From positions 9,056,209 through 9,120,208 of the forward strand of contig CM057003.1 of assembly GCA_029891345.1 (NCBI GenBank): a stretch of DNA of 64,000 nucleotides, read 5' to 3'. The stretch comes from Dryococelus australis. Its lineage: Eukaryota; Arthropoda; Insecta; Phasmatodea; Phasmatidae. Within the stretch, counting starts at the first letter, position 1. Every line of letters begins with the position of its first letter. The position numbers were made by a program, and so were the translations under genes. Of this stretch, positions 9,715 through 55,291 are shown piece after piece. Below the pieces are notes generated by a model. That model did no database searches, was not told the origin of the DNA, and worked only from the letters and a program-made list of their open reading frames with translations.

Positions 9715-10230
9715 GAGCACAGTGTATCACTCCTGCAAATCTGTTTTGACGGTCCGCCTCTAACACCCAAACTGTTCAGCTGGGCTCGTGAGAGTTTATT
9801 GAGTAATGGCTGACGCATGACGTGCGTCGCTGAGGTTTAATAGAAAACAAGAGATTGAAAAACGGTTGGATATTTTGTAGCTGTCTCCAAACACGAAATG
9901 CACCTGAGACAAGTTTTGTTTCCAAAAACAAGTTTCAATTTTTCATTTCAACTCCAAGGATTAGCATATTTTTGGCCATGGAAATGGTTAAAACGGCCAT
10001 TACTAAACGTTGTTGTAAGTCGCATAAAAACTCAAGAGACAAGAAAAGTCTGTGGATTTTCCCTAGACTGTGTATGTGCGCTGAAGACGGGAGCAATTCA
10101 CGTCTGGATTTTCTTTGTTGTGCTGTCTTAATAAGCATATATTCTGGCCGTAGTGTTTGTCTTTGCAGTCCTCGTCTCGTCTGTATATAAATTTGTTCTA
10201 GCCAATGCGATACTCTGCTTGATCCTCGTT
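9715..10230. other. Intron leading into minisatellite
   Basis: The last 90 bp contain degraded versions of the 57-bp unit found downstream. No gene is visible. Confidence 0.35.
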
Positions 10231-10914
10231 GTATCGTCTGTGAATGCATCTGTTCTAACCACTTGGTTCGTCCATGCTGTTATCATTGTATCGTCTGTTA
10301 ATACATATGTTCTGACCACTTGGTTCGTCCATGCTGTTATCATTGTATCGTCTGTTAATACATATGTTCTGGCCACTTGGTTCGTCCATGCTGTTATCAT
10401 TGTATCGTCTGTTAATACATGTGTTCTGGCCACTTGGTTCGTCCATGCTGTTATCATTGTATCGTCTGTTAATACATGTGTTCTGGCCACTTGGTTCGTC
10501 CATGCTGTTATCATTGTATCGTCTGTTAATACATATGTTCTGGCCACTTGGTTCGTCCATGCTGTTATCATTGTATCGTCTGTTAATACATATGTTCTGG
10601 CCACTTGGTTCGTCCATGCTGTTATCATTGTATCGTCTGTTAATACATATGTTCTGGCCACTTGGTTCGTCCATGCTGTTATCATTGTATCGTCTGTTAA
10701 TACATATGTTCTGGCCACTTGGTTCGTCCATGCTGTTATCATTGTATCGTCTGTTAATACATATGTTCTAACCACTTGGTTTATCCATGCTGTTATCATT
10801 GTATCGTCTGTTAATACATATGTTCTAACCACTTGGTTTATCCATGCTGTTATCATTGTATCGTCTGTTAATACATATGTTCTGACCACTTGGTTTGTCC
10901 ATGCTGTTATCATT
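10231..10914. repeat. 57-bp minisatellite, 12 copies
   Basis: The unit begins GTATCGTCTGTTAATACATA and ends with TGCTGTTATCATT. Twelve full 57-bp copies run from 10231 to 10914, followed by a degenerate copy, with weaker copies on both sides (to about 11110). Because 57 is a multiple of 3, long frames stay open on both strands. Copies differ at few sites, mainly CTGGCC/CTAACC and ACATGTG/ACATATG, with like variants in neighbouring copies. Confidence 0.95.
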
Positions 10915-12300
10915 GTGTCGTGTTGTTGTTCATAGCTTGTAGTCATTGTGGTTTCGTCAAATTATTTTGATGTTTCCCACGTACATCGTTGTTTGTCCGT
11001 TGGCCACTCATATTGAAGTCCTCGTGCCTTAGGCATGTACATCTTTTTCTGGCCATTGTGTTCGTCTGTGTTACCTTTATTGTTTCGTCCAATTATCCAA
11101 CTATCGAATGCACACCATCCTCATGGTTCGTCTGTTGGTTACTCGTAATGTTTCTGTGCATTTTTCTTGTAATATCTGGCTATATTCCTTCCGTGGAAGG
11201 ATTTCTTGACAGTAGCCAAAAATTACCTATTTTATTTTTATTATTTTTGTCCTAGTTATTATGCCATTTTGTAGGTTTTCCGCTACTAGTAGCAAATTAT
11301 TGTAGTAGCTAACGTTCAACTTGATGATTCAGTTAATTATACTTGTGTTATTGCATTAAAATTTTTCATATCTTATAACACTATCCACTTTTACAATTGT
11401 TTAGTGTTACGAAATAATTAACTATCTACCGAGGTATTAACGAAGTCTGCACTCCTGTCTTCCCCGGAGTCTAAGGCTAAATGACACTCTCGTCACGAAA
11501 GATGATAAATGGAAAATAAAAATAATAAGAAGTTGAGAAAAAATATCATCACGAATGCGACATTACTTATAAAGTAGTGAAGAGTAATAGTTGTCCATAT
11601 AAGGTACTATATGGTAATAGATATGTATTTAATAGAGGATGCTGAAATGAGATCAAGCAAGTGCCCTGTTACTTTCGGGTAGTGGGGTAGGTACAGTTAA
11701 GATCTACCGGGGCAGCATCCAAAATCTTCGCTAAAGTATGTTTCGGACGAGGATACGGCAAAATGCTGGGAGAGTGTGCCATATTTTACGTCTAAGCGTT
11801 GCAAATAAGAACTAAACGCTGCGGAGATTCCCACCTGCTTTGCGGTCTCAAGCAAACTAAAGTTACTAGACGAATGACGAGTTGAAACAAGGGAGGAAAA
11901 TTCAATATGTGCCACATTTACAATCCGAGAACAATGAATGTTGGTAATGCAAAACGAGGTATCTGTTTTTCAAGCGTGTGCGATTTATCCACAGCTGTAG
12001 TATTGGCACTTTTTGTTTCTAGGTTAAGAGAATTTTTTTTTTTTTTTTTGCCCAGAAGTGCTTGCCATTTCAAAGGTAAGTACTTTACGTATGATGTCTG
12101 CAATATCGCGAGAAAGTAAAACATTTTCAGAGCTCCTTTTTCTGTGCTCGCGCTCACAAGAGTTGAACGAGCCAGAAACACGTGTTAGAGAAAGGCATTA
12201 TTAAGTTAGGAAGGAAGCCAGAACGAATTAAGGATAAAATGGTGGCTGCTACGCTAGAAGACACGCTCCCTTGCTCTCTAACTATTTGATGCAAGTTCAG
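10915..12300. other. Intron with degenerate minisatellite flank
   Basis: Up to about 11110 there are decayed fragments of the 57-bp unit (GTTCGTC, TGGCCA motifs). Beyond that the sequence is AT-rich with nothing recognised. Confidence 0.35.
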
Positions 12301-18745: not shown

Positions 18746-19599
<854 letters not shown>

Positions 19600-29734: not shown

Positions 29735-29945
29735 TTATAGGGATGATGGAAAATCGCAAAAATGTTTTGAGTCAACATATGTTCTGTAACACTCTTAACT
29801 AGTTCATTCGTTCATGATTGGATGAGCAAGGTTCTGACTCGGCTATGTTATTTGCAGACCAGTCTTAACAACTTTCTGCCTTATAGTATCAGAATCCTCG
29901 TTTTCCCAGTGAAATGGGGTATTAGTTTCAAATACGCATGACAGC
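29735..29945 (+). repeat. Interspersed repeat R2, copy 1
   Basis: It is shared in reverse orientation with 51246-51465: GATGGAAAATCGCAAAAATG, then CTCGGCTATGTT, TTTGCAGACCA and TATCAGAATCCTC. Unknown class. Confidence 0.6.
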
Positions 29946-30054
29946 CAACAAGGAAATAAAACTGTCTGGCTTGTTTACAGTGCGTTCATTCCTAGCAAAC
30001 AGTCAACGTTTCCCGCGATAAACCATTATCTCTAAACATTTTATATATCATCAA

Positions 30055-31044: not shown

Positions 31045-31327
31045 ACCTGTTCCAGCGCGCCATCATGATGAGCGGCTCGGCGCTGTCAGACTGGGCGCTC
31101 ACGACGAACGCCATCCAGACGACGGCGCAGGTGGCCCAGGCTCTCAATTGCCCGCTCGCCGAGAACGAGATGGCGCAGTGCGTACGACGCAAGCGGCTCA
31201 GCGAGCTGATGGCAGTGCGCGTCGAGTCACGGCCCTTCACCACGCCCTTCGGACCCATCGTCGACGGCAGCGTCGTCGTCAACGACCCCGAGCAGCTCAT
31301 GAGCGTCTACCCGGACCAGTTCAGCAA
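31045..31327 (+). CDS. Neuroligin exon B
   Basis: This internal exon of 283 nt (phase 1 to phase 2) continues exon A directly: the G|AC split codon gives DLFQRAIMMSGSALSDWAL, the segment after the nucleophile elbow. It then carries a Cys pair (ALNCPL and MAQCVRR) equivalent to the first conserved neuroligin disulphide loop, and FGPIVDGSVVVNDPEQLM, the core of the esterase fold. The donor CAA/GTACGT leaves AA, completed by the G of exon C (Lys). The acceptor GGAACAG/AC is preceded by an unusually G-rich tract (GGGGTGGGGTGGGGGGTGGT) instead of pyrimidines. A diverged hAT MITE begins 74 bp after the donor. Confidence 0.95.
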
Positions 31328-34175: not shown

Positions 34176-35007
34176 GTTCTACTACTTGTCTTCATCCATA
34201 ATAATTTCTCACTGCAATATCTGCTGTGCGCAGGTCATAGCCATTAGTAGTTTCACAATTAAGAGTTAACTTCATTCGTGACGTGGTATCTGGAAATGAC
34301 TACGGGAAGTTGAAGGTTGAGAATAGCTCTCGTAACTCCCAAACTCTCGTTGTTGCGCATCTTGAATGTTCATAAGGCATTCGTTAAAACTTCCAACATC
34401 TCTGAAGTTACGGCGTTTAGTATATAATTAGTCTTGTGGCCCAGGCCGATATAGTTAAACTTCTCCATTGTGTGCATCTATCTTTTGAGTGTCACATTGA
34501 GGAACATATACCGTTACCAAGAAGCAAAAATATGCATTTTTTTTTCTTCAAACTTTAAAAATATTTTCTCTAGCAAGAAAAATCACTGAAAACTAGTGGG
34601 AAAATTATAAATAAGGCTTTTAATATAACTAAAACTTTTGATTACTCAGCGTAATTTTTGCTACTAGAGGTAATGTGACATAAATTGAGGTGACACACTT
34701 TTTTACTTTTTCCATAATTTTTAGAGATTGAATACTTATGAGGAAAAAAAAACGACTTACCACGACTACGAAAAATATCACAAATACCGTGACTTACGTG
34801 TAGTTGCCTTACCTCTGACGTAGAATGAGCTGCCCCAAAAATTTGACAAAGCAAAGGGAAGAAATCTTTTATTTGAGTCCTATCATCTCAATGCGTTCGC
34901 TAACTTGGCAGTTTTCTGATTATACCGTTATGCTGCTGTTTCACTGAGTTTCTCAATTCGCTCTCACTATATACATGGCCGTCAGTTTTCGAACCAAGAC
35001 ATACCTG
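34176..35007. other. AT-rich intron
   Basis: Nothing recognised. Confidence 0.3.
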
Positions 35008-36979
35008 AAGATGATTATTAAAGTTTCTGGCACATCATTAGATCATGGGGGTGTTTGTTATGGTCAAACTGTTCACTCTGAAGATGATTATTAAAGTTTC
35101 TGGCACATCATTAGATCATGGGGGTGTTTGTTATGGTCAAACTGTTCACTCTGAAGATGATTATTAGAGTTTCTGGCACATCATTAGATCATGGAGGTGT
35201 TTGTTATGGTCAAACTGTTCACTCTGAAGATGATTATTAGAGTTTCTGGCACATCATTAGATCATGGGGGTGTTTGTTATGGTCAAACTGTTCACTCTGA
35301 AGATGATTATTAGAGTTTCTGGCACATCATTAGATCATGGGGGTATTTGTTATGGTCAAACTGTTCACTCTGAAGATGATTATTAGAGTTTCTGGCACAT
35401 CATTAGATCATGGGGGTTTTTTGTTATGGTCAAACTGTTCACTCTGAAGATGATTATTAAAGTTTCTGGCACATCATTAGATCATGGGGGTGTTTGTTAT
35501 GGTCAAACTGTTCACTCTGAAGATGATTATTAAAGTTTCTGGCACATCATTAGATCATGGGGGTGTTTGTTATGGTCAAACTGTTCACTCTGAAGATGAT
35601 TATTAGAGTTTCTGGCACATCATTAGATCATGGGGGTGTTTGTTATGGTCAAACTGTTCACTCTGAAGATGATTATTAAAGTTTCTGGCACATCATTAGA
35701 TCATGGGGGTGTTTGTTATGGTCAAACTGTTCACTCTGAAGATGATTATTAAAGTTTCTGGCACATCATTAGATCATGGGGGTGTTTGTTATGGTCAAAC
35801 TGTTCACTCTGAAGATGATTATTAGAGTTTCTGGCACATCATTATATCATGGGGGTGTTTGTTATGGTCAAACTGTTCACTCTGAAGATGGTTATTGGAG
35901 TTTCTGGCACATCATTAGATCATGGGGGTGTTTGTTATGGTCAAACTGTTCACTCTGAAGATGATTATTAGAGTTTCTGGCACATCATTAGATCATGGAG
36001 GTGTTTGTTATGGTCAAACTGTTCACTCTGAAGATGATTATTAGAGTTTCTGGCACATCATTAGATCATGGGGGTGTTTGTTATGGTCAAACTGTTCACT
36101 CTGAAGATGATTATTAAAGTTTCTGGCACATCATTAGATCATGGGGGTGTTTGTTATGGTCAAACTGTTCACTCTGAAGATGATTATTAAAGTTTCTGGC
36201 ACATCATTAGATCATGGGGGTGTTTGTTATGGTCAAACTGTTCACTCTGAAGATGATTATTAAAGTTTCTGGCACATCATTAGATCATGGGGGTGTTTGT
36301 TATGGTCAAACTGTTCACTCTGAAGATGATTATTAGAGTTTCTGGCACATCATTAGATCATGGGGGTGTTTGTTATGGTCAAACTGTTCACTCTGAAGAT
36401 GATTATTAGAGTTTCTGGCACATCATTAGATCATGGGGGTGTTTGTTATGGTCAAACTGTTCACTCTGAAGATGATTATTAAAGTTTCTGGCACATCATT
36501 AGATCATGGGGGTGTTTGTTATGGTCAAACTGTTCACTCTGAAGATGATTATTAAAGTTTCTGGCACATCATTAGATCATGGGTCTGTTTGTTATGGTCA
36601 AACTGTTCACTCTGAAGATGATTATTAAAGTTTCTGGCACATCATTAGATCATGGGGGTGTTTGTTATGGTCAAACTGTTCACTCTGAAGATGATTATTA
36701 GAGTTTCTGGCACATCATTAGATCATGGGGGTGTTTGTTATGGTCAAACTGTTCACTCTGAAGATGATTATTAGAGTTTCTGGCACATCATTAGATCATG
36801 GGGGTGATTGTTATGGTCAAACTGTTCACTCTGAAGATGATTATTAGAGTTTCTGGCACATCATTAGATCATGGGGGTGTTTGTTATGGTCAAACTGTTC
36901 ACTCTGAAGATGATTATTAAAGTTTCTGGCACATCATTAGATCATGGGGGTGTTTGTTATGGTCAAACTGTTCACTCTG
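35008..36979. repeat. 73-bp satellite, 27 copies
   Basis: The unit begins AAGATGATTATTAAAGTTTC and ends AACTGTTCACTCTG. Twenty-seven copies run head to tail with very high identity. Two main variants, ATTATTAAAG and ATTATTAGAG, occur in blocks. One copy (starting 35373) has a 1-bp insertion, and copy 13 is the most diverged (GGTTATTGGAG). A period of 73 with in-unit stops argues against coding. Confidence 0.98.
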
Positions 36980-37961
36980 AAAAGTAGTTTTTGCCGCTTG
37001 TGTTCTTCTATTATTTAAGGAATTATATTTTTGTATCTATATATCTGTATCTTAAGCAATTGCATGCAAAATGCAATAGTACCAATCATTTAATAATAAT
37101 ATTTTATAGGCTATCAGTAAATTACAAAATTTTCTCTTATAATTATATAAAATTGATGAACCAAATATATTACAAGATATTTTTGTGATGAAAAAAGGAG
37201 AAAAATTATACGTAGCTCTTCAAATTTAGAAAAGTAGAGAATTATTGCAAGTAGGTGTGATATTTCTCCTTGAAATCCGAGTTAGTGCTCAGGAAAAACT
37301 AGTTAATACTAAAAAAAAAATTCGAAATAAGAGAAATCCGTAAAGATCTGTTACAAAGGTTATTTTTGTAAATAATAAGTTAAGGAAGTGTATAGATGAG
37401 ATAAAAGTGGGGATGGAATAAAACTTCCATGCCTAGTATACATTCACCGCAAACGTGTGTACTCTTTTAGCAGAAATCACCACAGCCGGTAGAGAGCAAA
37501 ACTCCTCAAATAAGAGTAAATCTCAAAAATGGTAAAGTGTTGCCAAAAAATGAGGTGGCCTTATTGGAATGATTTTAAAGAAACCTGGAAATAACTATCG
37601 TTTCGTAATACGTCATTTATTAATTTTAACATGGAATTTTTTTATGGAGGTATTTCGCCATATATAAATTTCAGTTATTGCGAAAAGAATACTTGGCTTC
37701 ATTAAAAGTTACAGCTGAACAAGCAAGAATATTACTTGTCTTCGCAACCGTAATTCATGTCTTGATATCAAAGCTCTGCTCTCACATAACGCGACTTAAT
37801 GATAACTACTCTACAAATGGAAATAAGCAGTTCGTTAGGTATACACTCCTTCAAATAGAAATTACACTAGTTACTAAAATTTACTCCCAGAAGTGCCGTA
37901 ACTGTGTAATATAACTGTAAAATATTTCTTCGTTATACTGGTTAATTTTTTTGTAGTAAGA
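36980..37961. other. AT-rich intron
   Basis: Nothing recognised. Confidence 0.3.
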
Positions 37962-38149: not shown

Positions 38150-38930
38150 GTTCTGGAACAGGAGGCCAGGACTGGGGCTGACTGCCGCCATATTGGGTTA
38201 CGTCATTTTTGGACGCCATCTTGGATTCCCAGACTTTTTGCTCTGCCATTCCGATCATGTGACGCCATCTTGGATTACGACATGTCCGGTCACCATTTTG
38301 TTAGCCAGCATACCTCCATATTGGTAGCCAGTATGTTAAATTCCTTGCTCTAACAAGCCATATTGCTTTTATAAGTCCGAGTATTCTCTCCAAGTGCTCT
38401 AATTATTTCATGCTCTTGCATTTCATTCATGCGACTTCCATATTTGATACACAGACTTCCTCCTCTATCATTCAACCTCGGCATCCACCAACTTGGATTA
38501 CATTTCTCATGCTCCATCATTCCACCTTGACATCCACCATCTTGTATTTAATTTCTTCATGCTCTATCATGCCACCTCGGCATCCAGCATTTTGGATTCC
38601 CAGACTTCCTGCTCTATCAATCAGTCATGTGACCACTATGTTGGATTCAGCCATTTTGGATTCTACCATCTTGTTACCCACTTTCATTCGATTAGTTGCA
38701 TTCTCTCCACCGCCATGTTGTGCTTGAACTTCACGATATATCAATACATGTAGCCTCTCTTGCATTTCAAGGGTTTTCTTCGAGTGCTCCAATTTTTTCT
38801 CTCTTGCACTCTTTCTCTTTCTTTCCTCTCATCCTTTCTCTTTCTTTCATCTCTTCCTTTATCTTTCTTTCCTCTCACCTTTGTTCGATTAGTCGCTCCA
38901 CCGCCATATTGTAAATTTGCCACCTAAAAA
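38150..38930. repeat. Subterminal array of CCATCTTGGATT-like motifs
   Basis: At least a dozen variants of GCCATCTTGGATTCC (such as CCATATTGG, CCATTTTGGATTC, CCATCTTGTA) occur here, irregularly spaced and often followed by a T-rich CTCTATCATTC segment. The reverse-complement series is at 48050-48760 (AATCCAAGATGGCGG). The motif resembles the YY1/Pho core (AAnATGGCG). Confidence 0.7.
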
Positions 38931-39149
38931 AATTCTATTGATGCCATATTAGATTTATATTAATTCCGCTAGTTAACTTTCGGACCTCATATTTTCTGCT
39001 TCACCTCTTTCGTCCGATTCTTTATCAACAGATCATGCAGGTTCGGACAGGTTCGTCACGACCCAGACTTAGTATTGCCATTAGACTATCGCGACTTGCA
39101 TGTCGCTCCGTACACCCCTCGGTACAAGCCCACACCATATTTGTTCAAA

Positions 39150-39990
39150 AAATATTCAAAAGTAACCAGAATGTGTTCTTAATGTGTATTGAAAGTTTTT
39201 AATAATGTAAATTTTGAATATATATTGTCTGAAGAATTCTGGTTTTAAAATAATTACTCCCATGTTTTTTAAATTGTGTTTATGTCTTTAAAAATGGTAA
39301 AGTGGCTGTTAAATACTTTTGATACACTTTAAAAGCACTTTGGTTGGTATTAAAAACTTTCAATACACATTAAGAACACATTTATGACCTTTAAATATTT
39401 CGAAAAATTGACATATAATCAGTCTGGTTAATTTTATATATATATACATACATATATATATATATATTTGTGTGTGTGTGTGTGTGTAATCTGATCGACT
39501 CTATGAAATCAGCTTACTATTTGTTAAATTATGTTTGGAACCAGTGGGTATTCGAGCCCAGCTTTTTGTCGAGATACTTTACCATTAAGTTATGGGCCCA
39601 AACACACAAACTCAATTATTGATATGCTATATGAATTTTTTTACCAAGTCTGTACACTACTCAGTACAGGTACTGAGTTTCTATAATATTTTTTCAAAAA
39701 ATATTTAAAGGTAATCAGGATGCTTATAAGGGCGATTTTCCAAATTCTTTAAAGGTCGTAAATGTGTTCTTAATGTGTGTTGAAAGCTTTTAATACCAAC
39801 CAAAATGCTTTTAAAGTGCATTAAAAGGTTTTATAACCCACTTTACTATTTTTAAAAACATAAACACCATTTAAAAAACTTGGGGGTAATTATTTTAACA
39901 GTAAAATTCTTCAAACAATATATTCAAAATTATGTTGTAATAAAATATTCTCAAACAATAAATTTAAAAGAAAAATTGCCACACTATATA
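39150..39990. repeat. Inner inverted duplication in left arm only
   Basis: 39190-39390 (TTGGTTGGTATTAAAAACTT, TCAATACACATTAAGAACAC) is repeated inverted at 39700-39950 (TTAATACCAACCAAAATGCT). The right arm has only one copy (47550-47800). The loop contains a (TA)n/(TG)n tract and a tRNA-like segment. Confidence 0.75.
39537..39602 (-). other. tRNA-like segment
   Basis: On the minus strand it reads like a decayed tRNA: box A-like TAACTTAATGGTAAAGTA and box B-like GGGCTCGAATACC. The acceptor stem does not pair well, so it is more likely a SINE or pseudo-tRNA remnant than a tRNA gene. Confidence 0.4.
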
Positions 39991-40166
39991 TATGTGTATA
40001 TCGATTGATCTTCTGAACATCATAGGATATACAACAACATAATAAAACTGGAAGTATAAGGAGCAAAAAAATTGTTTTATTGTATGTAAGTTACAAACAC
40101 ACATCTATTGCTGCAGTTCATTTCCACCACATATAATATTATTAGTAAAACAACACATGTCTTTGA

Positions 40167-40548
40167 CATTCATTTTGTATCATTACTGTAGCAAGGGTCT
40201 CTTGCAGCCCATGCAGCTCCTGTACAACACCATCCATCACAGTAGTTTACTCTTCAATCTCATGGTTTATGGAACATATTTTCGGGTTCTATGGAAACTT
40301 GGCAAGATTTCTTGGTGTTGATAGGCACTGTGATTCTCGCGTACAGCGTATATCATCATTGTTCGATGATGGTGTCCATGATGCCGAATCTACAGTGGGC
40401 ATGTTTTTGGGTGTATGTAGTCGATCGGAAAGCAATGGTTCAATCATTGAAGGCGATGTCACCGGTGACTCTGCTGCGAAACACTTCGCTAAGGAACTGA
40501 TTCAGTTCTCCATCAAAAATCTCATCGTGTTATGCACACAAGAATGAC
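40167..40548 (-). pseudogene. Decayed element gene, left-arm copy
   Basis: Reading the minus strand, a Ser/Thr/Pro-rich stretch (TVDSASWTPSSNN) is followed after stops by TTVMDGVVQELHGLQETLAT and VMIQNECQRH, ending at a stop near 40167. The same peptide with a few changes is encoded in the right arm (47042-47376). Conservation between arms of a protein-like, amphipathic C-terminus suggests a real former gene downstream of integrase in the same orientation. I cannot name it. The plus-strand frame across 40269-40547 is its antisense shadow. Confidence 0.45.
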
Positions 40549-40622
40549 CATTTGAAATAACAACCCCTGCTATATTGAACCCCTCCTTCCATCGACAATC
40601 ATTACATAGTTCAAAGTTAAAG

Positions 40623-40955
40623 CTACTTGACCCTTATATCTTTCATACCCACCCAGCTGACTTTAGATTTTAATAGTCCCAACCTTCTTGCCAGTATTAT
40701 TCCTTTCTTGCGATGTAAGACTTTCTCAACCAAATACATATCACGAAATTTCGTGCCCTTTAATTCTTTTGAGGAGAAGGTGCTACATCTAGCTACATTA
40801 TCCATATGTTAAAAATAATATGTGCAATGATAGTAATGTCATATGTGCACAACACAGAAGAGCACCGTAGACTTTTTTTTGCAATGAGTTGTCTTTCACA
40901 TCCTTGGGTCACATGCCTATCGTTTGATGAATAGAAGAATAATATTCAGCCACCA
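40623..40955 (-). pseudogene. Polinton-type integrase C-terminal remnant, left arm
   Basis: On the minus strand a core-end signature YYSSIHQTIGM (typical YN.S.HRTIGM of retroviral-like integrases) is followed by PKDVKDNSL. Then comes a frame with STFSSKELKG (the G.FY..EL block) and a chromodomain-like end YLVEKVLHRKKG ... SWVGMKDI. Stops and deletions make it non-functional. The catalytic D,D,E core is absent: a (TA)n tract (40959-41031) replaces the upstream part. The family's role is transposon DNA integration. Homologous, independently decayed copy at 46516-46896. Confidence 0.7.

Positions 40956-40958
<3 letters not shown>

Positions 40959-41031
<73 letters not shown>
40959..41031. repeat. 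(TA)n microsatellite, left arm
   Basis: About 36 TA units abutting the integrase remnant; mirrored by 46412-46499 at the equivalent place of the right arm. Confidence 0.95.
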
Positions 41032-41034
<3 letters not shown>

Positions 41035-42275
41035 CATACTTCACACTACAACCATAAAAACTGAAACCTTACATTTTCCCGCACCTATCATGTAGTCTCT
41101 TTACACCAGTATGACCACTTTTCACCAAGAGAATATAATCTGCTTAAACACAGCTCAAGGCAGTCTATACTATCAAGTGTCCAACCAGAACCCGTGCCCA
41201 TGTATATTCTTCTTCACAAACAAATTCCACGACTGCCACTGTCAAACTAAGCTTCCTAACTGTAACCTGGCTGCTTACATAGGTACCACACCAGCCTATG
41301 TAACTCATTAACACCATCAGCTCTATCAATCAACAGCAGACTAAATATACTCATCGTTCATATTACAAGTCAAGCATATCTCAGCCTATGCCCATTAAAG
41401 TATACAAAAGTCGTAACATAAACATGTTTGTCATTGCTATCAGACAATAATCAAATATATATATATAGGAAAAGATATAACTCAACATACCAGCCATGTT
41501 AACCCAAGCTTACCAAGCAGATTCTATAATCCAGGCCATCCAACAATGCAAACATTCTAACCATCTGCCAAACAATCATTACTGACTGATACCAGACCAA
41601 ACTACATACCATCACCTATAACCTAGGAAAAACTTAATCCTACTCCATCACCCAATACACCAAGATATATATCTATCATAGTTCGACCAACTCTACAGAT
41701 CAGATCAGCCAATAAAGTAACATCCATACTGCCTGTTCTGCCAATCTACACCACCTTTACCTAACAGCAATACCACCCACTGTATATCTAGCATACCTCA
41801 ACCATTCATCTACCATGCTTACTAGCACTTGTCAAAATACACTGACCACCCATTTCAAACACATTTTTTAACTCAAGCACACGTTAGCCTCATGGTACTC
41901 GTCGACACACACATACTGTCCATGTAATTTGATATATACCGGCAATCACAAGACAGATACACTAGGAAACATATCATGCCACATACCATACATGATTACC
42001 CAAGCATACAAAGTCAATTTATAGACCAGACTAACCTGCAACAAAAACAATCTTACCATCTGTTAAACCATCATTACTTTCCAATACCAGATTATCAAAC
42101 ATCCCATCACCTATAACCAAAGAAAAACTCAATTCAACTATATCACCCAACACATCAATCATATTATCCGTCATAACTCAAGTTTACAGAAAATATAGAG
42201 TTCAGACGAACCGAAACACAAATGTCCCTACCATTTGTCCTACCAACTAACACCAGACTAAATATACTCATACTG

Positions 42276-45135
42276 TAACTCGAACACGAATATAATATCT
42301 ATAAGATATTAATATATACATGACTGTAATATATATGATATAAATGTGTACCTACTTATCTAAGATATATATAATTGTATATAAGATAGGACTATAAATA
42401 AAATGTGGTTTCTTCTGAGTGAATATGCCCTTGGGGTTTCTCAGAGTGCTCCCAATGGCGAAAATATTATAAATTTTTTCTGCATATTTAAAATGTTGGT
42501 AAAATGTTATGTTTATTTTTATCTTGAATGGAAGATTTTGAATAGACAGTATGTAAGTTGAAGATCCTATGACATCATTCAATGATAAGGTTAAGAGTTT
42601 TCATTATACAATCTTTTTCTAACCTTGGCAGGTTGTCGAGCAGTCTAAGACGTTGCATTTAAACATTAGTTTCTTGTAAGGGCAGTGCAGGTAGTTCTGT
42701 TCCTCTTACTGAGTTTGAGTGGCATGAGAATTAGCTACATAATATTTATACATATGAAAGCAGCATATGTGTCTTACTACAAATAATCCAAAACATCTTT
42801 CTCTTAACGCGAAGGTGTAAAAAATGGTGGTTTGTTGTTTTAGTAGTCAGATAATTTTTATCAGCTAATGTGATATATGGAAAGCTTAAATCACTTGTAG
42901 CAGCCTACACAGTTACTGAACTTGCATACCTACCTACCTACATACCTAAAGAATTCCTTCCGATGTATGCATGATGTGAAATATAATGGGTTTACTAGAG
43001 AAATAAAAAAAGAAGGTGAATCCGACATTGAATTATGTATAAGTGTTAAGACAAATGGTTGTTTAATGGTTGGATTCGCAGGTTAGATAATGAACGGGGT
43101 TAATTATCCTTAGTATAACACTTCATCACACATATTGCTTTTCTACTTATTCATACTCAGCTGACCTATAGTGAGATAGTTGAAATGGGTAACATGTACC
43201 AGTTGTTCTGCTGTGAAAACAGCACATAAGCTTGCATCTTGTAAGAATGTTTTTAACCTTGCCTACGACCATGGAGGAAGACAGATTGTCATGAGTGGAA
43301 TTATCTACTATGACCGTGTACTCTGCTAAAGATGGCATCAGTGGTTGAAGACTTACTATAACACCACCAGAATCGGCGACAGCAAGCATTTGTAAAGAGT
43401 CGCTACAAGCATTGCGGTATCAGTGTTGTTTTTGTGGAAATACTTTTAGCCAAAGTTGTAATGCACACCGACATGAAAGGTGCCATTGCCTTTTCAGTCC
43501 AGCATACTAGTCGTTCCAATGTGTTTACCCGCATTGTTAATCTGCATGTACATACCAAGATTTGTAAAGGTAATTGTCGCCCACTGCACCAATGCCAAAT
43601 GTCATGAAGATAGGAACTACCCATTTGCCACTGTCTACAAGACCTAACCATGCATTAACTGCCATATGGTATTTGCGAATAAACATTCATTGAATGTTTA
43701 CAGAAGGAATTGCATGAATGAAAACTTAATTGAACATGCAAGATGAACAAATGCGAAGATATTGTGAGGCAAACCTCACAGGCTAGACAGCGATCGACTT
43801 GATAAGGTAACATATTTCAGTCTGGCAATCATGCTGATGTTTGCACCAAGCAGTGATCTACTGAGGTTGGAAACACAAACTAGCATGAAGTATGAACAGT
43901 ATTTAAACCAGCACCATTGAACTTACAAAATTTTCTTATCCCTACCTATAACTAAAGTAAAACTTAATTCAACCATACCACCCATACCATCTGCTCTACC
44001 AACCATCGTCAGATGAAATATACGCACTACTCAAACCAGAATTGAAGCATACCTCAGCCCAGACTCACGAAAATATACCAAAAATCATAACTCCAAAATG
44101 TTTGTTTTATCATCAGACACCAGCCAAAATATTATTCCAGACATTAATATAAATCGCTCTATCAACCATCCATACCAATAAAACATGCTAACCAACACAC
44201 CTCAGGCATACAAAAACAAAATATGACCAACCCTGCTGACCAGGATTACTGGGTACTAAATCAGACATAACCCAGAATATTTCAGTTATATCACACAGCT
44301 CAGATTGTATATGCAACATAAGAACTATCCATTTAATACCACCACACACCATCTATTACCATCACCAATTATATCATACCAGGTAATATACCTCCAGCAT
44401 ACTTAATAATCATATAAATAACCTATTGGTACTGAATACCAAAACAGATATAATAACTTTCAACATGACTTTAGCTTTCCTCAGCCACGCATCGTCGAAA
44501 GGCATACAACTCAGCATACCTACATACTATTCCATCTGATTATATCACCAAACCCCCACAGCAGGTAACCATTCAACCAAAACATACAGCTCCAAACCAT
44601 ATTGTTCACTCTAACCCCAAGCATACCTCATTCATGCTGTTAACAATACAGACTATATCAACCACCATACCTCAGACTTACTATTGTTTGGTATGCATGG
44701 TCAGTGTATTTTGATTGGTGTCAGTCAGCATTGTGTCATTGGTATGGGCCTTATTTTTGCTTTATGTGTCCTGTGTGGATGAATGATAAAGGTATGCTAG
44801 AATTATAGTGGGTGGTATGGTCAGAAGGTTTAAGTGGTTTTGGTTGGTAGATTTTGCAAAATGGGTGTTAGATTGTGGGCTAGTCTCAGCTGTATAGTTG
44901 CTAGGGTTATGATGGATATAGAGCTTCTTGTATTTGGTGGCATGGCTGAATTGAGTTTTTATTTGGCTATAGGAGATTGAGTGTTGGGTGGTGTGGTATG
45001 ACTTGGTATATGCTGTTATGTATGGCAGTATAGCGACTAGTATATATTTTAGCTGGTGTCGACCAGTAGAGCAGACAGTGTGAGCAGTGAATAAATTTTT
45101 GGTATGCTCAGTGCAGGCTAAGGAGCATTCAAGGT
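42276..45135. other. Spacer of the giant element
   Basis: Not part of the main inverted repeat. 42276-43400 is AT-rich; 43418-43746 has zinc-finger-like remnants; 43900-44690 is C+A-rich and switches at about 44690 to G+T-rich sequence, where motifs such as GGTATGCATGGTCAGTGTAT echo the right arm. A more ancient palindrome centre may therefore lie near 44690. Confidence 0.5.
43418..43746 (+). pseudogene. Frameshifted array of C2H2/C2HC zinc fingers
   Basis: Three finger-like pieces lie in three successive frames. 43418 onward: YQCCFCGNTFSQSCNAHRHE ending CH (C-x2-C-x3-F-x5-A-x2-H-x3-H). 43521-43565: VFTRIVNLHVHTKIC (F-x5-L-x2-H-x3-C). 43648 onward: PCINCHMVFANKHSLNVYRR ending NC (C-x2-C-x3-F-x5-L-x2-Y-x3-C). 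Regular spacing and repeated pattern argue for a former zinc-finger protein gene of the element or its host, now broken by frameshifts and stops. Function cannot be given. Confidence 0.5.
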
Positions 45136-45946
45136 ACAGTATGAGTATATTTAGTCTGGTGTTGGTTGGTAGGACAAATGGTAGGGATATTTGTGTTTCG
45201 GTTCGTCTGAACTCTACATTTTCTGTAAACTTGAGTTATGATGGATAGTATGATTGATGTGTTGATTAGTATGGTTGAATTGAGTTTTTCTTTCGTTATA
45301 GGTGATTGCATGTTTGATGGTCTGGTATTGATAAAAATGATGGTTTACAGATGTTAAGATTGTTTTTGTTGCAGGTTAGTCTGATATATGAATTGGCTTT
45401 GTATGCTTGGGTTATCATGGATGGAATGTGGCGTGATATGATTTCTAGTATATCTGTCTTGTGATTGCCGGTATATATCAAATTACATGGACAGTATGTG
45501 TGTGTCGACGAGTACCATGAGGCTAACGTGTGCTTGAGTTAAAAAATGTGTTTGAAATGGGTGGTCAGTGTATTTTGACAAGTGCTAGTAAGCATGGTAG
45601 ATGAATGGTTGAGGTATGCTAGATATACAGTGGGTGGTATTGCTGTTAGGTAAAGGTGGTGTAGATTGGCAGAACAGGCAGTATGGATGTTACTTTATTG
45701 GCTGATCTGATCTGTAGAGTTGGTCGAACTATGATAGATATATATCTTGGTGTATTGGGTGATGGAGTAGGATTAAGTTTTTCCTAGGTTATAGGTGATG
45801 GTATGTAGTTTGGTCTGGTATCAGTCAGTAATGATTGTTTGGCAGATGGTTAGAATGTTTGCATTGTTGGATGGCCTGGATTATAGAATTTGCTTGGTAC
45901 GCTTGGGTTAATATGGATGGTATGTTGGGTTATATCTTTTCGCATT

Positions 45947-45950
45947 TATA

Positions 45951-46003
<53 letters not shown>
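45947..46003. repeat. (TA)n microsatellite
   Basis: TA-rich tract in the right arm. The left arm has only a short TA tract at the equivalent position (41456-41468). Confidence 0.9.
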
Positions 46004-46007
<4 letters not shown>

Positions 46008-46411
46008 TGGTGTCTGATAGCAATGACAAACATGTTTATGTTACAATTTTGGAATACTTTAGTTGGCGTAGGCTGAGATATGCTTGAATTCTATTATAAA
46101 TGATGAATATATTTAGTCTGGCATTGGTAGGTAGAGCAGATGATGTTAATGAGTTACATAGGCTGGTGTGGTGCCTATGTAAGCATCCAGGTTCCAGTTA
46201 GGAAGCTTAGTTTGACATGAAATTTTCTGTGAAGAAGAATATACATGGCCACAGGTGCTGGTTGGACACTTGCTAGCATAGACTGTCTTGAGCTGTGTAT
46301 ATCAGATTATATTCCCTACGTGAAAAGTGAACATGCTGGTATAAAGACTCTATATGAAAGGTGTGGGAAAATTGAAGGTTTCTGTTTTCATTATTGTCAT
46401 GTGAAGTATGT

Positions 46412-46417
46412 GTATAT

Positions 46418-46499
<82 letters not shown>
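46412..46499. repeat. (TA)n microsatellite, right arm
   Basis: About 44 TA units with one shift at 46429; counterpart of 40959-41031. Confidence 0.95.
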
Positions 46500-46508
<9 letters not shown>

Positions 46509-46515
46509 TTTGGTG

Positions 46516-46896
46516 GCTGACTATAATTCCTCTATTTATCGAACGATAGGCATCTGGTCCAAGGATGTGAAAGACAACACGCTGCTAAAAACAGAGTATA
46601 AGGTTGAAAATATTTTGGGTTCTCGCAAACCAAAAGATAAAATTGATGATGTGTGCATAAGAAGACAAAGGTGTTTATTTACTTAAGGATATTCAGGGAA
46701 CTGATCTACAGAGCTCTTGTGTGTTGTGCACATACAACATTACTGTCATCGCACATATTATTTGGAAGATATGGATCATGTAGCTATATCTGGCGCCTTC
46801 TACCCTGATGAAATAAATTTCAGGAAATTTCCTGATACATATTTGCCAAAATCCAATGATAGCTGGGTGGATATGAAAGACATAAAGGACAAGTAA
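46516..46896 (+). pseudogene. Polinton-type integrase C-terminal remnant, right arm
   Basis: The frame 46516-46683 reads ADYNSSIYRTIGIWSKDVKD then KTEYKVENILGSRKPKDK, matching the end of the integrase core (YN.S.HRTIGM.P.DV) and the start of the C-terminal SH3-like domain (Y.VGD.VRISR.K..F). After a stop, 46753-46896 reads TYYLEDMDHVAISGAFYPDE ... FPDTYLP ... NDSWVDMKDIKDK and stops, matching the P.TY.LED..G..I.G.FY..EL block and the chromodomain-like tail. It is broken by at least one stop plus a deletion relative to the left copy. The catalytic core is missing. Confidence 0.72.
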
Positions 46897-47041
46897 CTTT
46901 AACTTTGATTTTTGTGTTGATTGTTGCTGGAGGCAGGGGTTTATATTAGCAGGGGTAGTTATTTACCAACATCATTCTTGTGTTCGCAACAAGACGAGGT
47001 TTTTGATGGAGAGCTGACCCAGTTCCTTAGCCAAGTGTTTC

Positions 47042-47376
47042 GCAGCAGTCACCAGTGACATCGCCTCCAACGTTTGAACCATTGACTTCGGATTGACTAC
47101 ATTCACCTGAAGATCTACCCACTGTAGATTCGGCATGGTGGACACCATCATCGAACAATGGTACTGTATGAGGTGCGTGGGAAATCACAGTGCCTATCAA
47201 CACCAATAAGTCCTGCCAAGTGTCTGTACAACCCGGAAGTATGTTACATAAGGCATGTGATTGAAGACTAAACTACTGTGATGGGTGGTGTTCTACAAGA
47301 GCTGCATGGGCTGCAAGAGACCCTTGCTACATTAATTATACAAAATGAGCGTCAAAGACATGGGTTGTTTTGCTAA
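47042..47376 (+). pseudogene. Decayed element gene, right-arm copy
   Basis: A Ser/Pro-rich stretch (PSVSQQSPVTSPPTFEPLTS and TVDSAWWTPSSNN) is followed after stops by TTVMGGVLQELHGLQETLAT and LIIQNERQRHGLFC, then a stop at 47374-47376. It is homologous to the left-arm copy at 40167-40548. Same direction as the integrase remnant. Confidence 0.45.
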
Positions 47377-48807
47377 TAATATTATATGTGGTGGACATGA
47401 ACTGCAGCAATAGACATGTGTTTGTAACTTACATACAGTAAATATTTTTTTTAGTATATATACTTCCGGTTTTATTATGTTATTGTAGATCATATGCTGT
47501 TCATAACATCGATCAGATTATATATATACATGTTTGGCAATTTTGGTCTTAAAATATATTTTTTGAGAATAAGTCATTACAACATAATTTTGAATATATT
47601 GATTGAAACATTTTGGTTTAAAATAATTACTCCCATGCTTTTTAAATGGAGTTTATGTTTTTAAAAATGGTAAAGTGGCTATTAAAAATGTTTGATATAC
47701 ATTAAAAGAACTTTGGTTGGTATTAAAAACTTTCAATACACATTAAGAACAAATTTACGACCATTAAAGGTTTTGGGTAATCGCCCTTATAGGCATCCTG
47801 GTTACTTATATATATATATATATATATGAACAAATATGGTGTGAGTTTGAACCAAGATGTGTACAGAGGGACATGCAAGTCGCGATAGTCTAATGGCAAC
47901 ACTTAGTCTGGGTCATAACGAACCTGTCCGAACCTGCATGACCTATTGATAAAGAGTCGGGCAAAAGAGGTGGAGCAGAACCTATGAAGTCCGAAATCTA
48001 ACTAACAGAATTAATATAAATCCAATATGGCACCAATTTAATTTTTTTAGGTGGTAAATATACAATATGGTGGTAGAGCGACTAATCAAACAAAGGCGAG
48101 AGGAAAGAAAGAGAAAGGAAGAAAGGTAATAAAGAGAAAGAATGGGAGCACTCGGAGAAAACCCTTGGAATGCAATATATGCTAAAAGGGGTGATAGAGC
48201 ATGAAGTGCAAGCACGAAATGGTGGTGGAACGAATGCGACCAACCGATTGATAGAGGGTTTCAAAATGCAGAATCCAAGATGGTGGAATCCAAAATGGCT
48301 GAGTGAAACATGGTAGTCGCATGACTGGAATGATAGAACAGGAATTCCAGGAATCCAAGATTTTGGATGCCGAGGTGGAATGTTAGAGAATGAAGAAATG
48401 TAAACCGAGATGGTGGAATAATAGTGCAGGAAGTCTGTGATTCAAATATTGTAGTCACAAGAATGGAATTATAGAGTATGAAGTCCAAAAACAGGATGGC
48501 AGTCGCATAAATGTAATGCAAGAGCATAAAAAATGGGAACACTTGGAGAAAACACTCGGGATTGTAGAGGAAACATTGAATGAATCATGGAAATTGAATT
48601 CTGGCTACCAAGAATGTGCCATACTGTCTAACAAGATGGCGACCAGAAACTACGTAATCCAAGATGGCGGTCACATGACCGGAGTGACAGAGCGGGTAGT
48701 GCGAGAATCCAATATTGTGGCCATAAATGATGTAATCCAAGATGGCGGTAGTCGGCCCTGCCCCCGCTTCCTGACTCCTGGCCCAGAACGAACTAAATTA
48801 CACTACT

Positions 48808-49799: not shown

Positions 49800-51235
49800 T
49801 TTAATGGCATGCTGGGGCGAAAAAGCTCTCACTTGAAAACCACATCGGCTCTTAGTTTCTTGACATATTGAAGTGTAGTAAAAGTAGTGCTAGATGAGGA
49901 TGTCTGCTAACAGACACGATTTGCTATATTGCGTCAAGGAGCTGGACAGGTAGCTATGATTGTATGGCGTAACATTTAGTGGTGGTTTAATGGAGTGCAA
50001 ACGGCGCCCGTTGCTAGTCTCAGGGTGTGATGTAGTCCAGAGATCAGGATAACATGTGAGGATGTCAGCCAAGCTGTTACTGCATGGAGTAACATTCAGT
50101 TATGGTGTGTGAAGTGCAAACGCCATCAATTCCTTGTCTAGTGGCATGCTGAAGTGCAGTAAACAGAGTGTTAGGCGAGAATTTTTTATAAACAAGTACA
50201 TCCTACTGTATGCCGTGTTGGAGCTGGAGAACCACCACTTGTTGTGTGGAGAAATATTCAGCTATGATATTTTGAACAAATCACATCAGCGCCTTGTCCC
50301 ACGACGTGAGTTAAAATGCCATAAACATGGTTTTGAGGTATGGCGTTTGCCGACAGGTGTGACATGCTTTACAGCATAATGGAAATGGCGAGGTAGTACA
50401 TAGCATAGGAGTTACATTTATCTATGGCCTTTTGGAGTTCAAATTACATCAGCTCCTACACTCATCGTATGTTTAGAGGCAGTGAGCATAGTGTTAGATG
50501 AAGTTCAAATATGGCCTTTAGGAATACAAATTTCGTCAATCACTTGTATCATTGTGTGTTGAAGCACAGTGAGCAGAGTTTTTAGTCACTTGGCTGCCGG
50601 CAGGTATGACCTGATTTATAGCATAATGGAGTTGGAGAGGTAGCACTTAGTAAATGGGGTAACATTCAGACATGGGATTTTGGACTGCAAATGATATTAG
50701 CTCCTGGTCTCATGATGTGATTATGTGCAGTCACCAGAGACGTAGATCAGGTAGTCTGGTTACAGGCACGACCTGTTTTACGGAGTGATGGTGTTGGATA
50801 ATGTGGTAACATTTAACCATGGACTTTTGGAGGGTAGTCATCGCCAGTTCCTAGTTCCATGGTGCATTAAAGTCCAGATATCAGAGTAATAGATCAGGGT
50901 GTCTGCCAAACAGTCATTCTATGGACTAATAATCAGCCATAATATTTGGAAGTACGAATGATGTCAAGCTGTAGTCCAGAGATCGGAATAAGAGATCAGG
51001 GTGTCTTCCTAGCTGGAACTGTAGGGAATAACGTTCAGGTATGGTCTTTTGTAGAGCAAATGACAACAGCTCATAGTTTCATGGTGTATTGTAGTCCAGA
51101 GATCAGAGTGATAGATCGGGGTGTCTGCTAAGCTGTTACTGATTGGAGTAATGTTCTAATATTATCTTTTGGAATGAAATATGCATTATTTCCTTGTCTC
51201 ATGGTTAGAGACGTTTGTTTATAGCGGGAAAAATT
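49800..51235 (+). pseudogene. Array of decayed tandem copies of neuroligin exon C start
   Basis: About eight to ten units, roughly 100-160 bp apart, each match the exon C acceptor side plus about 100 bp of coding sequence. Starts of exon-like parts: about 49911, 50075, 50199, 50357, 50500 (partial), 50615, 50763, 50915, 51015 and 51132. Peptide echoes of RYDLLYGVTELESYHLLGGV include RYDLIYSIMELER (50615), HDLLYCVKELDR (49911) and HDLFYGVMVLD (50763). Some keep the acceptor word TTTGCCGACAG (about 50346) or GCCGGCAG (about 50607). Units share derived words absent from exon C (GTAACATTCAG, CTTTTGGA) and a linker (AGTCCAGAGATCAG, GGTGTCTGC), so one duplicate was amplified in tandem and then decayed with stops and AT drift. 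Confidence 0.8.
50197..50379 (+). pseudogene. Best-preserved pseudo-exon copy
   Basis: This unit is still open: KYILLYAVLELENHHLLCGE then IFSYDILNKSHQRLV. It aligns without gaps to the start of exon C (YDLLYGVTELESYHLLGGVA, LSYGLLERERDQLL). Its acceptor (AACAAG/TAC) lacks the G needed for the phase-2 junction, so inclusion would shift the frame. The frame runs on to a stop at 50377-50379. Confidence 0.7.
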
Positions 51236-51245
51236 GACTGTTGCA

Positions 51246-51465
51246 AGGGATTCAACGTACTGTACACATGTCCATGTATGAAGCTACTACCCCAATCCAC
51301 TGGGCCATTGAGGATTCTGATACCATAAGGCCGAACGTTCGTAATTGGTCTGCAAACAACATAGCCGAGTCAAAACTATGTTCATCCACTCATGGAAGAA
51401 TTAACTAGTTAAAGTGTCATAGAAGATATGTTGACTCAAACATTTTTCGCGATTTTCCATCATCT
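51246..51465 (-). repeat. Interspersed repeat R2, copy 2
   Basis: Reverse-orientation copy of 29735-29945, inserted between the last pseudo-exon unit and functional exon C. Array-type linker sequence (TCATGGTGTATTG) resumes after it at about 51470. Confidence 0.6.
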
Positions 51466-51515
51466 CTACTCATGGTGTATTGATGTGTACTAGCACATAC
51501 GCTGTTTGCCGACAG

Positions 51516-51873
51516 GTACGACCTGCTGTACGGCGTGACGGAGCTAGAGAGCTACCACCTGCTGGGGGGCGTGGCGCTCAGCTACGGCCTGCTGGAGCGC
51601 GAGAGGGACCAGCTGCTGCACTCCTACTTCCAGGACAAGTTCCAGTTCAAGCCCGACGTGGCGCTAGCCGAGACGCTCAAGGAGTACACGGACTGGCGCC
51701 AGTCGCAGTCGCGGCCAATGGCCGAGGAGCACCGCGACGTGCTGCTCGACATCCTGAGCGACGCGCGGGTCGTCGCGCCGCTCGTCAAGACGGCCAACTT
51801 CCACTCGAGCGCCAACCCCAAGTCGTACTTCTACGTCTTCACGCACAAGAGCTTGTTCGGTGACTTCGCCGAT
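51516..51873 (+). CDS. Neuroligin exon C
   Basis: This internal exon of 358 nt (phase 2 to phase 0) completes Lys from exon B and continues YDLLYGVTELESYHLLGGVA through the lid/helical region. It includes FQFKPDVALAETLKEYTDWR, a linker, and VAPLVKTANFHSSANPKSYF then YVFTHKSLFGDFAD. YTDW and the SYFYVF strand are neuroligin/esterase landmarks. Where acetylcholinesterase has its acid (KDEGSY) this reads TELESY, so by ungapped alignment the Glu is Leu. Borders are GCCGACAG/G and GAT/GTGAGT (near-consensus donor). GC-rich. Decayed partial copies of its 5' part lie in tandem upstream, and a possible hAT-like insertion starts about 28 bp past the donor. Confidence 0.97.
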
Positions 51874-51901
51874 GTGAGTGTCCCACCTTGCATCCGATGA
51901 G

Positions 51902-55133: not shown

Positions 55134-55291
55134 GGGAGGCAGCACGAGAGCATACACGGCGAGGAGCTGCCGTACGTGTTCGGCGTCGCCGTCGACGGAG
55201 ACGACTCTCACTTCCACCAGGCCTACAACCTGTCCGAGAATCTCTTCTCCGAGGCAGTCATGACCTTCTGGACCAACTTCGCCCACACCGG
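55134..55291 (+). CDS. Neuroligin exon D
   Basis: This internal exon of 158 nt (phase 0 to phase 2) encodes GRQHESIHGEELPYVFGVAV, the HG[DE]ELPYVFG landmark of neuroligins and cholinesterases. Its His (codon 55155-55157) is the residue equivalent to the catalytic His, kept although the Ser is lost. It continues with a likely N-glycosylation sequon (NLS) and LFSEAVMTFWTNFAHTG. The acceptor is TTCTTTTTCTTGCCGCAG/GGG with a good pyrimidine tract. The donor CCGG/GTTAGC leaves GG, completed by the first G of exon E (Gly). The second vertebrate neuroligin disulphide is not evident here. Confidence 0.96.

Follow-up and report, generated by a model that had tools for sequence, protein, structure and literature searches.

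The intron upstream of exon C in a neuroligin gene of Dryococelus australis contains a row of about eleven decayed copies of the border of that same exon. The array is very probably a minisatellite that grew across the 3′ splice site of exon C; on this reading it makes no product and persists as a fossil of the exon border. We analysed a window of 64,000 nucleotides (C11:9056209-9120208) and searched the genome to which it belongs (3.4 Gb, 646 contigs).

The host gene and its exons

We identified four neuroligin exons on the + strand of the window:

19143..19343, +, neuroligin exon A, joined open reading with B, C and D
31045..31327, +, neuroligin exon B, ending AA before GTACGT, continued by exon C
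51516..51873, +, neuroligin exon C, 358 nt, supported by Pfam COesterase and neuroligin structures
55134..55291, +, neuroligin exon D, peptide HGEELPYVFG...

The exons join in frame and give an open reading of 333 amino acids, which we compared with solved structures. The best match was NLGN4X (E 1e-57). Among the best 60 of 155 matches, the top 14 were neuroligins (1e-57 to 7e-53) and cholinesterases followed from 8.9e-42. The host gene is nearer to neuroligins than to cholinesterases. Exon C has its acceptor AG at 51514-51515 and its donor GTGAGT at 51874. The original prediction placed the R of RYDLLYG in this exon and has to be corrected, as the G at 51516 is the first exon base and the junction codon is AA-G (K). 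Neither profile search nor self-comparison found same-strand echoes of the borders of exons A, B and D within the window (the uniform self-comparison took 31048 as the start of exon B and 55290 as the end of exon D).

The window contains other repeated sequence. A large imperfect inverted duplication lies in the intron between exons B and C (38400-48530), and its arms, at about 38.4-42.3 kb and 45.1-48.5 kb, are about 73-87% identical in long blocks and up to 96% identical over 617 nt towards the centre. Two little-diverged tandem arrays occur at 35005-36981 (73-bp unit × 27, 98%) and at 10229-10921 (57-bp unit × 12, 97%).

Anatomy of the array

A direct-repeat search detected five direct-repeat families at 49837-51573, one of which takes in the border of exon C. 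The array comprises a half unit at about 49833-49864 followed by units U1-U10 at 49865-51205, and it lies directly upstream of exon C once a 263-bp inserted element is discounted:

49833..49864, +, U0, 3′ half unit at the 5′ edge of the recognisable array, weak nhmmer matches to later units
49865..50023, +, U1, long, intron tail and exon head, profile E 1.9e-38 (U1 itself in the profile)
50024..50142, +, U2, short, 42-nt deletion over the acceptor, alignment and profile
50143..50302, +, U3, long, open frame throughout, alignment and profile
50303..50465, +, U4, long, alignment and profile
50466..50552, +, U5, partial, large internal deletion, alignment and profile
50553..50713, +, U6, long, top profile match (E 4.9e-41)
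50714..50860, +, U7, long, 15-nt deletion, alignment and profile
50861..50965, +, U8, short, alignment and profile
50966..51082, +, U9, short, alignment and profile
51083..51205, +, U10, short, last before the element, its final 8 nt (51198-51205) being the left CTCATGGT
51206..51468, no strand assigned, 263-bp hAT-like miniature transposable element with imperfect terminal inverted repeats (TAGAGA...)
51469..51622, +, exon unit, made of intron tail and exon C head, last in the array and under constraint, exon-blind profile (envelope 51474-51625)

The array had been drawn from 49800 to 51235; its units do extend to 51205, and 51206-51235 belongs to the transposable element.

Five units are long (U1, U3, U4, U6 and U7), four are short (U2, U8, U9 and U10) and U5 is a remnant. 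Full units measure 147-163 nt and join the last 42-54 nt of the intron to the first 95-110 nt of the exon; the intron tail is 49-54 nt in the long units and, counted to the same start, 42 nt in the exon unit. As in the minisatellites known as mirages, the repeat unit spans the splice site and holds both intron and exon sequence. Full units stop near one point in the exon and resume at one point in the intron. The acceptor AG is in place in four of the five long units and was removed from all four short ones by their common 42-nt deletion. In U3 the aligned AG is now AA, and another AG lies one base downstream. Polypyrimidine tracts are weak in the units (7-9/16, compared with 10/16 in the exon). 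We also observed that U3 lies inside an 88-aa open frame at 50113-50376 of the window, with an exon C-like reading (YILLYAVLELENHHLL).

The copies hold about 107 of the 358 exon nucleotides or less. No unit has a donor or the 3′ 250 nt of the exon, and the sequence of exon C from 51641 and of the downstream intron to 52000 has no match in the array. Tandem Repeats Finder (TRF) called no array at the unit positions. The strongest autocorrelation within the array was at lag 222 (0.334; the highest of 100 shuffles reached 0.314), and the signal is weak since the units differ in length. The statement that all units share derived words was too strong: GTAACATTCAG is exact in two units and CTTTTGGA in three, the latter occurring once elsewhere in the window as well, and AGTCCAGAGATCAG is exact in two units and present with one mismatch in four. 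When up to two mismatches are allowed, the window has no excess of GTAACATTCAG over shuffles (27 vs a mean of 25.2). The linker, with up to three mismatches, is commoner in the window (10 vs 3.6; 0 of 100 shuffles).

The copies derive from the exon border

We built a profile from ten copies aligned without the exon. This exon-blind profile recovered every unit and matched the border of exon C at 51476-51622 (envelope 51474-51625; E 8.8e-15, 49.9 bits), taking intron tail and exon head as a single piece; once the array was masked, the window gave no other match at E ≤ 1. When the exon was included in the alignment, the border scored 50.2 bits, compared with 3.9 bits for the best of 1000 dinucleotide shuffles, and the coding part alone scored 29.6 bits, compared with 2.8 bits in shuffles. 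All ten leave-one-out profiles recovered the border (E 1.1e-15 to 1.3e-12), as did a profile of the five long units alone (E 4.1e-16); a profile of the four short units alone returned nothing at E ≤ 1. The array is derived from the border of exon C. The original prediction, in which tandem units echo the acceptor and first part of exon C (here ~107 bp), have decayed and resemble the exon more than shuffled controls do, is borne out on these points.

A transposable element separates the array from the exon

The 263-bp element between U10 and the exon is flanked by perfect 8-bp copies of CTCATGGT. We take this duplication, together with the TAGAGA ends, to mark the element as hAT-like. Another copy occupies the − strand at about 29738-30033 (K80 of 0.23 between the two), with five of eight positions agreeing between its flanks as read by eye from the alignment. 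No further copies were found in 200 kb upstream. At the empty site, with the element removed, the spacing from U10 to the exon is 152 nt, within the range of the units, and both neighbours match the profile. Exon C was thus the last unit of a continuous array, as had been proposed, and the array ran without a gap up to the real border as its outermost unit. A junction between units would likewise produce the left CTCATGGT, and the register is the same whichever origin applies. The element landed later, separating the array from the exon.

Decay and age of the copies

The array is probably old, because its units are only 48-71% identical to one another; identity between copies and exon is 43-60%. 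Mean K80 is 0.59 among long units, 0.44 among short units, 0.65 between long units and the exon and 0.98 between short units and the exon. Assuming about 3e-9 neutral changes per site and generation, we arrive at ~1e8 generations as a rough guess for the divergence. Length instability between haplotypes is not expected at such divergence. The tree of units is star-like and weakly supported, its best node (89.7/82) joining the four short units with U5, and the short subfamily occupies two places in the array. In view of these two features of the tree and the layout, a single duplicate that was later amplified, as first suggested, agrees with the array only roughly.

Stops in the exon frame occur in seven of the ten copies, U2, U3 and U7 being without them, and 1-bp indels occur in the exon parts of U2 and U4. 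Of the four long units that keep codon 13, three (U1, U4 and U6) have a TAG there and U3 does not; U7 lacks the codon. CpG decay as the main cause of the difference between copies and exon was considered and is unsupported (in the exon head, CpG bases kept at 63/138, other G/C bases at 189/449). Changes at CpG bases of the exon head were transitions somewhat more often than changes at the other G/C bases (56/75 vs 140/260).

A weak coding-like signal in the long copies

In the long copies, changes were about twice as likely at sites where they can be synonymous (odds ratio 2.03; permutation p 0.009, neutral simulation p 0.010), and the odds ratio falls to 1.56 without U4. Their pooled pN/pS was 0.51 compared with a neutral median of 0.83 (p 0.005), and the other two frames gave 0.68 and 1.52. 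A stratified column permutation on the long copies yielded p 0.09, and the test on all copies together p 0.08. Short units have no coding-like pattern. Codon-model omega was 0.32 for long units with the exon, 0.38 for long units, 0.68 for long and short units and 4.0 for short units alone (stops masked). The frame of U3 is open, yet in U3 alone the changes are not concentrated at synonymous sites. With p between 0.005 and 0.09 across tests, the long copies give a weak indication that a single ancestor followed by plain neutral decay does not account for them. The exon may have re-seeded or converted the copies repeatedly, or they may have passed through an early coding phase.

We also compared the majority sequence of the copies with exon C. 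Differences number 7, 2 and 15 of 26 sites at codon positions 1, 2 and 3. When ties were resolved in favour of the exon, the excess of synonymous changes at G/C sites was 16/32 vs 5/20 (Fisher p 0.09). The comparison leans towards an exon that kept changing mainly at silent sites and an array that retains the older version, a difference that is not significant when base composition is allowed for.

Origin of the array and alternative explanations

We propose a mechanism that builds on the observed unit anatomy, the register with the exon at the empty site, the missing donor and 3′ exon part, the decay and the arrays at paralogous exons described below. A stretch of ~150 nt, made of the intron end and the first ~107 exon nucleotides, would have been duplicated in tandem and amplified, probably by unequal exchange or slippage. 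Only the copy adjoining the rest of the exon would keep a donor, and splicing would define that copy as the exon; the others, upstream of the true acceptor and without a donor, would be left in the intron. Since exon definition would exclude the copies, such duplications should be nearly neutral, which would account for both their recurrence and their decay. Unconstrained copies would have accumulated stops, 1-bp indels and deletions, exchange among them would have ceased once they had diverged too far, and the transposable element would then have inserted between array and exon. The original prediction had left a choice between a minisatellite grown from an exon border and a failed cluster of mutually exclusive exons; the former is favoured by a unit that spans the border and lacks the donor and the 3′ exon part.

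The array presumably has no function. The predicted RNA fold of 50240-51216 is unremarkable (z −1.39; 1 of 20 shuffles as stable). Rfam gave no gathering-level match in the window and two sub-threshold matches on TA repeats, no tRNA was found in the window, and a search of viral contigs found no relative. A scan for bacterial-type promoters and terminators, which is ill-suited to this genome, found nothing beyond shuffles. It is very unlikely that the array works as a regulatory element whose leftover acceptors act as poison or decoy sites tuning the inclusion of exon C. The AG kept in four of five long units would suit such a role, as would the stop at codon 13, which would truncate a product, but five units are too few to show excess conservation of the acceptor, the tracts are weak, the fold is ordinary and the short units have no acceptor.

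We consider it very unlikely that complete alternatives to exon C once existed here and decayed as a failed mutually exclusive cluster. The gene does encode an adhesion protein, tandem copies do precede one of its coding exons, and the open frame of U3, the weak coding-like signal of the long copies and their surviving acceptors agree with this idea. It is nevertheless largely refuted because part of the exon is missing: the array has no match to the 3′ 250 nt (from 51641), to the donor or to the start of the downstream intron. The shared points at which full units break off in the exon and return in the intron, the codon-13 TAG common to U1, U4 and U6 and the weak polypyrimidine tracts also count against it. 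Mutually exclusive clusters are tandem homologous exon copies, as here, and the search criteria of PMC3228551 require copies of roughly the same length that conserve their splice sites and maintain the frame; the array departs from this in length, in acceptor and donor per copy and in reading frame. Alternative splicing has been reported for honeybee neuroligin, and the main text of that report contains neither ‘mutually exclusive’ nor ‘tandem’ (PMC2570956).

An origin of the units in a dispersed repeat family, resembling the exon by chance or having supplied its 5′ end, can be set aside: the units resemble a diverged repeat and a transposable element adjoins them, but the exon head aligns with neuroligins of other animals and with paralogous exons, neither the remainder of the window nor 200 kb upstream gave the copies profile a match at E ≤ 1, and part of U6 (50595-50720), searched as DNA against the 3.4-Gb genome, matched only itself in a search that is insensitive to copies this diverged. 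The occurrence of the units genome-wide as an unrelated repeat, raised with the original prediction, is covered in part by these searches.

Boundary-spanning arrays at paralogous exons

A protein search with exon C retrieved the exon itself and nine other places in the genome (29-46% identity; 15 candidates scored). We recorded arrays there by TRF and unit listing in orientation-corrected loci, reading splice sites from consensus and homology. Boundary-spanning arrays are present at three of the nine paralogues, three on the donor side and one on the acceptor side, with L029 carrying arrays on both sides of its exon:

L024 array, donor side, 84-bp units, 5.8 copies, 90% matches, 34 nt of exon tail, GTGAGC kept
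L032 array, donor side, ~101-bp units, 4.3 copies, 96% matches, 58 nt of exon tail
L029 donor array, donor side, 99-bp units, 4.8 copies, 68% matches, 32 nt of exon tail
L029 acceptor array, acceptor side, 43-bp units, 4.1 copies, 91% matches, about 13 nt of exon head

At L031 there is an intronic array that does not span the border of its own exon, and L025, L026, L027, L028 and L030 have no border-spanning array by TRF or self-comparison. The peptide QHQSGETDY is echoed in the intron at L024.

We then compared 33 exons, each with 600 nt of flank, to themselves. The set holds exons A-D of the window, the nine paralogues and 20 other esterase exons, hand-picked from 85 rows, nearly all one short exon, and so a non-random sample. 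Three exons were flagged (L024, L029 and L032); exon C of the window was missed, its copies being so diverged that a profile is needed. A control with exchanged flanks flagged 3 of 95, which we suspect are matches between homologous neuroligin exons. Arrays accompany 4 of 10 exon-C homologues, the window included, compared with 0 of 23 others (Fisher p 0.005, computed by hand on a non-random sample). The p value is 0.02 for 3 of 10, the window itself having been chosen for its array.

The paralogue arrays look younger than the array in the window, with repeat matches of 96, 91, 90 and 68% compared with about 60% in the window. We suggest, tentatively, that neuroligin exon C borders in this genome could be a recurrent birthplace of boundary-spanning minisatellites, several of them arising independently, at different times and at donors as well as acceptors, and decaying to ordinary-looking intron.

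A separate observation concerns introns. In L029 (oriented 1320-1497) and L031 (oriented, near 1484) an intron interrupts the exon C homologue before YHLSE/YHQSE, a position at which L024, L025, L028 and L030 are continuous; the upstream exon halves of L029 and L031 were not found within 1.5 kb. The acceptor of this internal intron in L029 bears the 43-bp boundary-spanning array, and it is possible that the intron change in L029 is linked to a mirage.

Comparison with known arrays and implications

In the amphioxus globin gene BflGb6, PMC3087553 describes a ‘mirage’ minisatellite in which the 3′ end of an intron and the 5′ part of the next exon are tandemly duplicated. Unit lengths are alike (150-160 bp in BflGb6, 147-163 bp in full units here), and unit numbers are 3-6 in BflGb6 compared with ten or eleven here. 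Splice signals are kept in many BflGb6 copies, as the AG is in most long units here. The amphioxus units are 81-100% identical and vary between haplotypes, whereas ours, from one assembly, have diverged far more. RT-PCR suggested normal splicing in amphioxus. Unlike that of BflGb6, the present array is split from its exon by a transposable element. Other amphioxus mirages, or repeats at exon borders, are given in PMC3087553 and PMC3902484 for Adh3, troponin C, BflGb9 and PGBD5 (the latter source names Adh, troponin C and PGBD5), and those of Adh and troponin C are said to yield no aberrant mRNAs. A donor-side case is also described in amphioxus (PMC3087553), and the arrays at L024, L029 and L032 are mostly donor-side, as in BflGb9. 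The amphioxus mirages belong to another lineage and to other gene families than the neuroligin arrays.

Human internal tandem repeats at exon-intron boundaries, according to PMC2812944, alter gene structure and may create introns. They are likewise minisatellites at exon-intron borders, but have units of 30 bp on average, are recent and lie in segmental duplications, unlike the array here. At the level of titles and the openings of abstracts, the literature on neuroligins and their exons yielded no such array. As far as these sources go, arrays named mirages are known from amphioxus (PMC3087553, PMC3902484), and the present array fits that kind.

The array represents an end state, barely recognisable by age and still in register with its exon. 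Together with the younger-looking arrays at paralogues, it suggests that tandem duplication across splice sites has been tolerated repeatedly, presumably because every added copy is missing either the acceptor or the donor that exon definition requires. Comparison of these paralogues, and of related species, offers a test of how intronic sequence originates and of the mirage route proposed for new introns. If neuroligin exon C borders do recurrently give rise to such minisatellites, they would form an age series from fresh mirage to fossil, in which the mirage route to intron growth, border shift and intron gain could be watched within one gene family.
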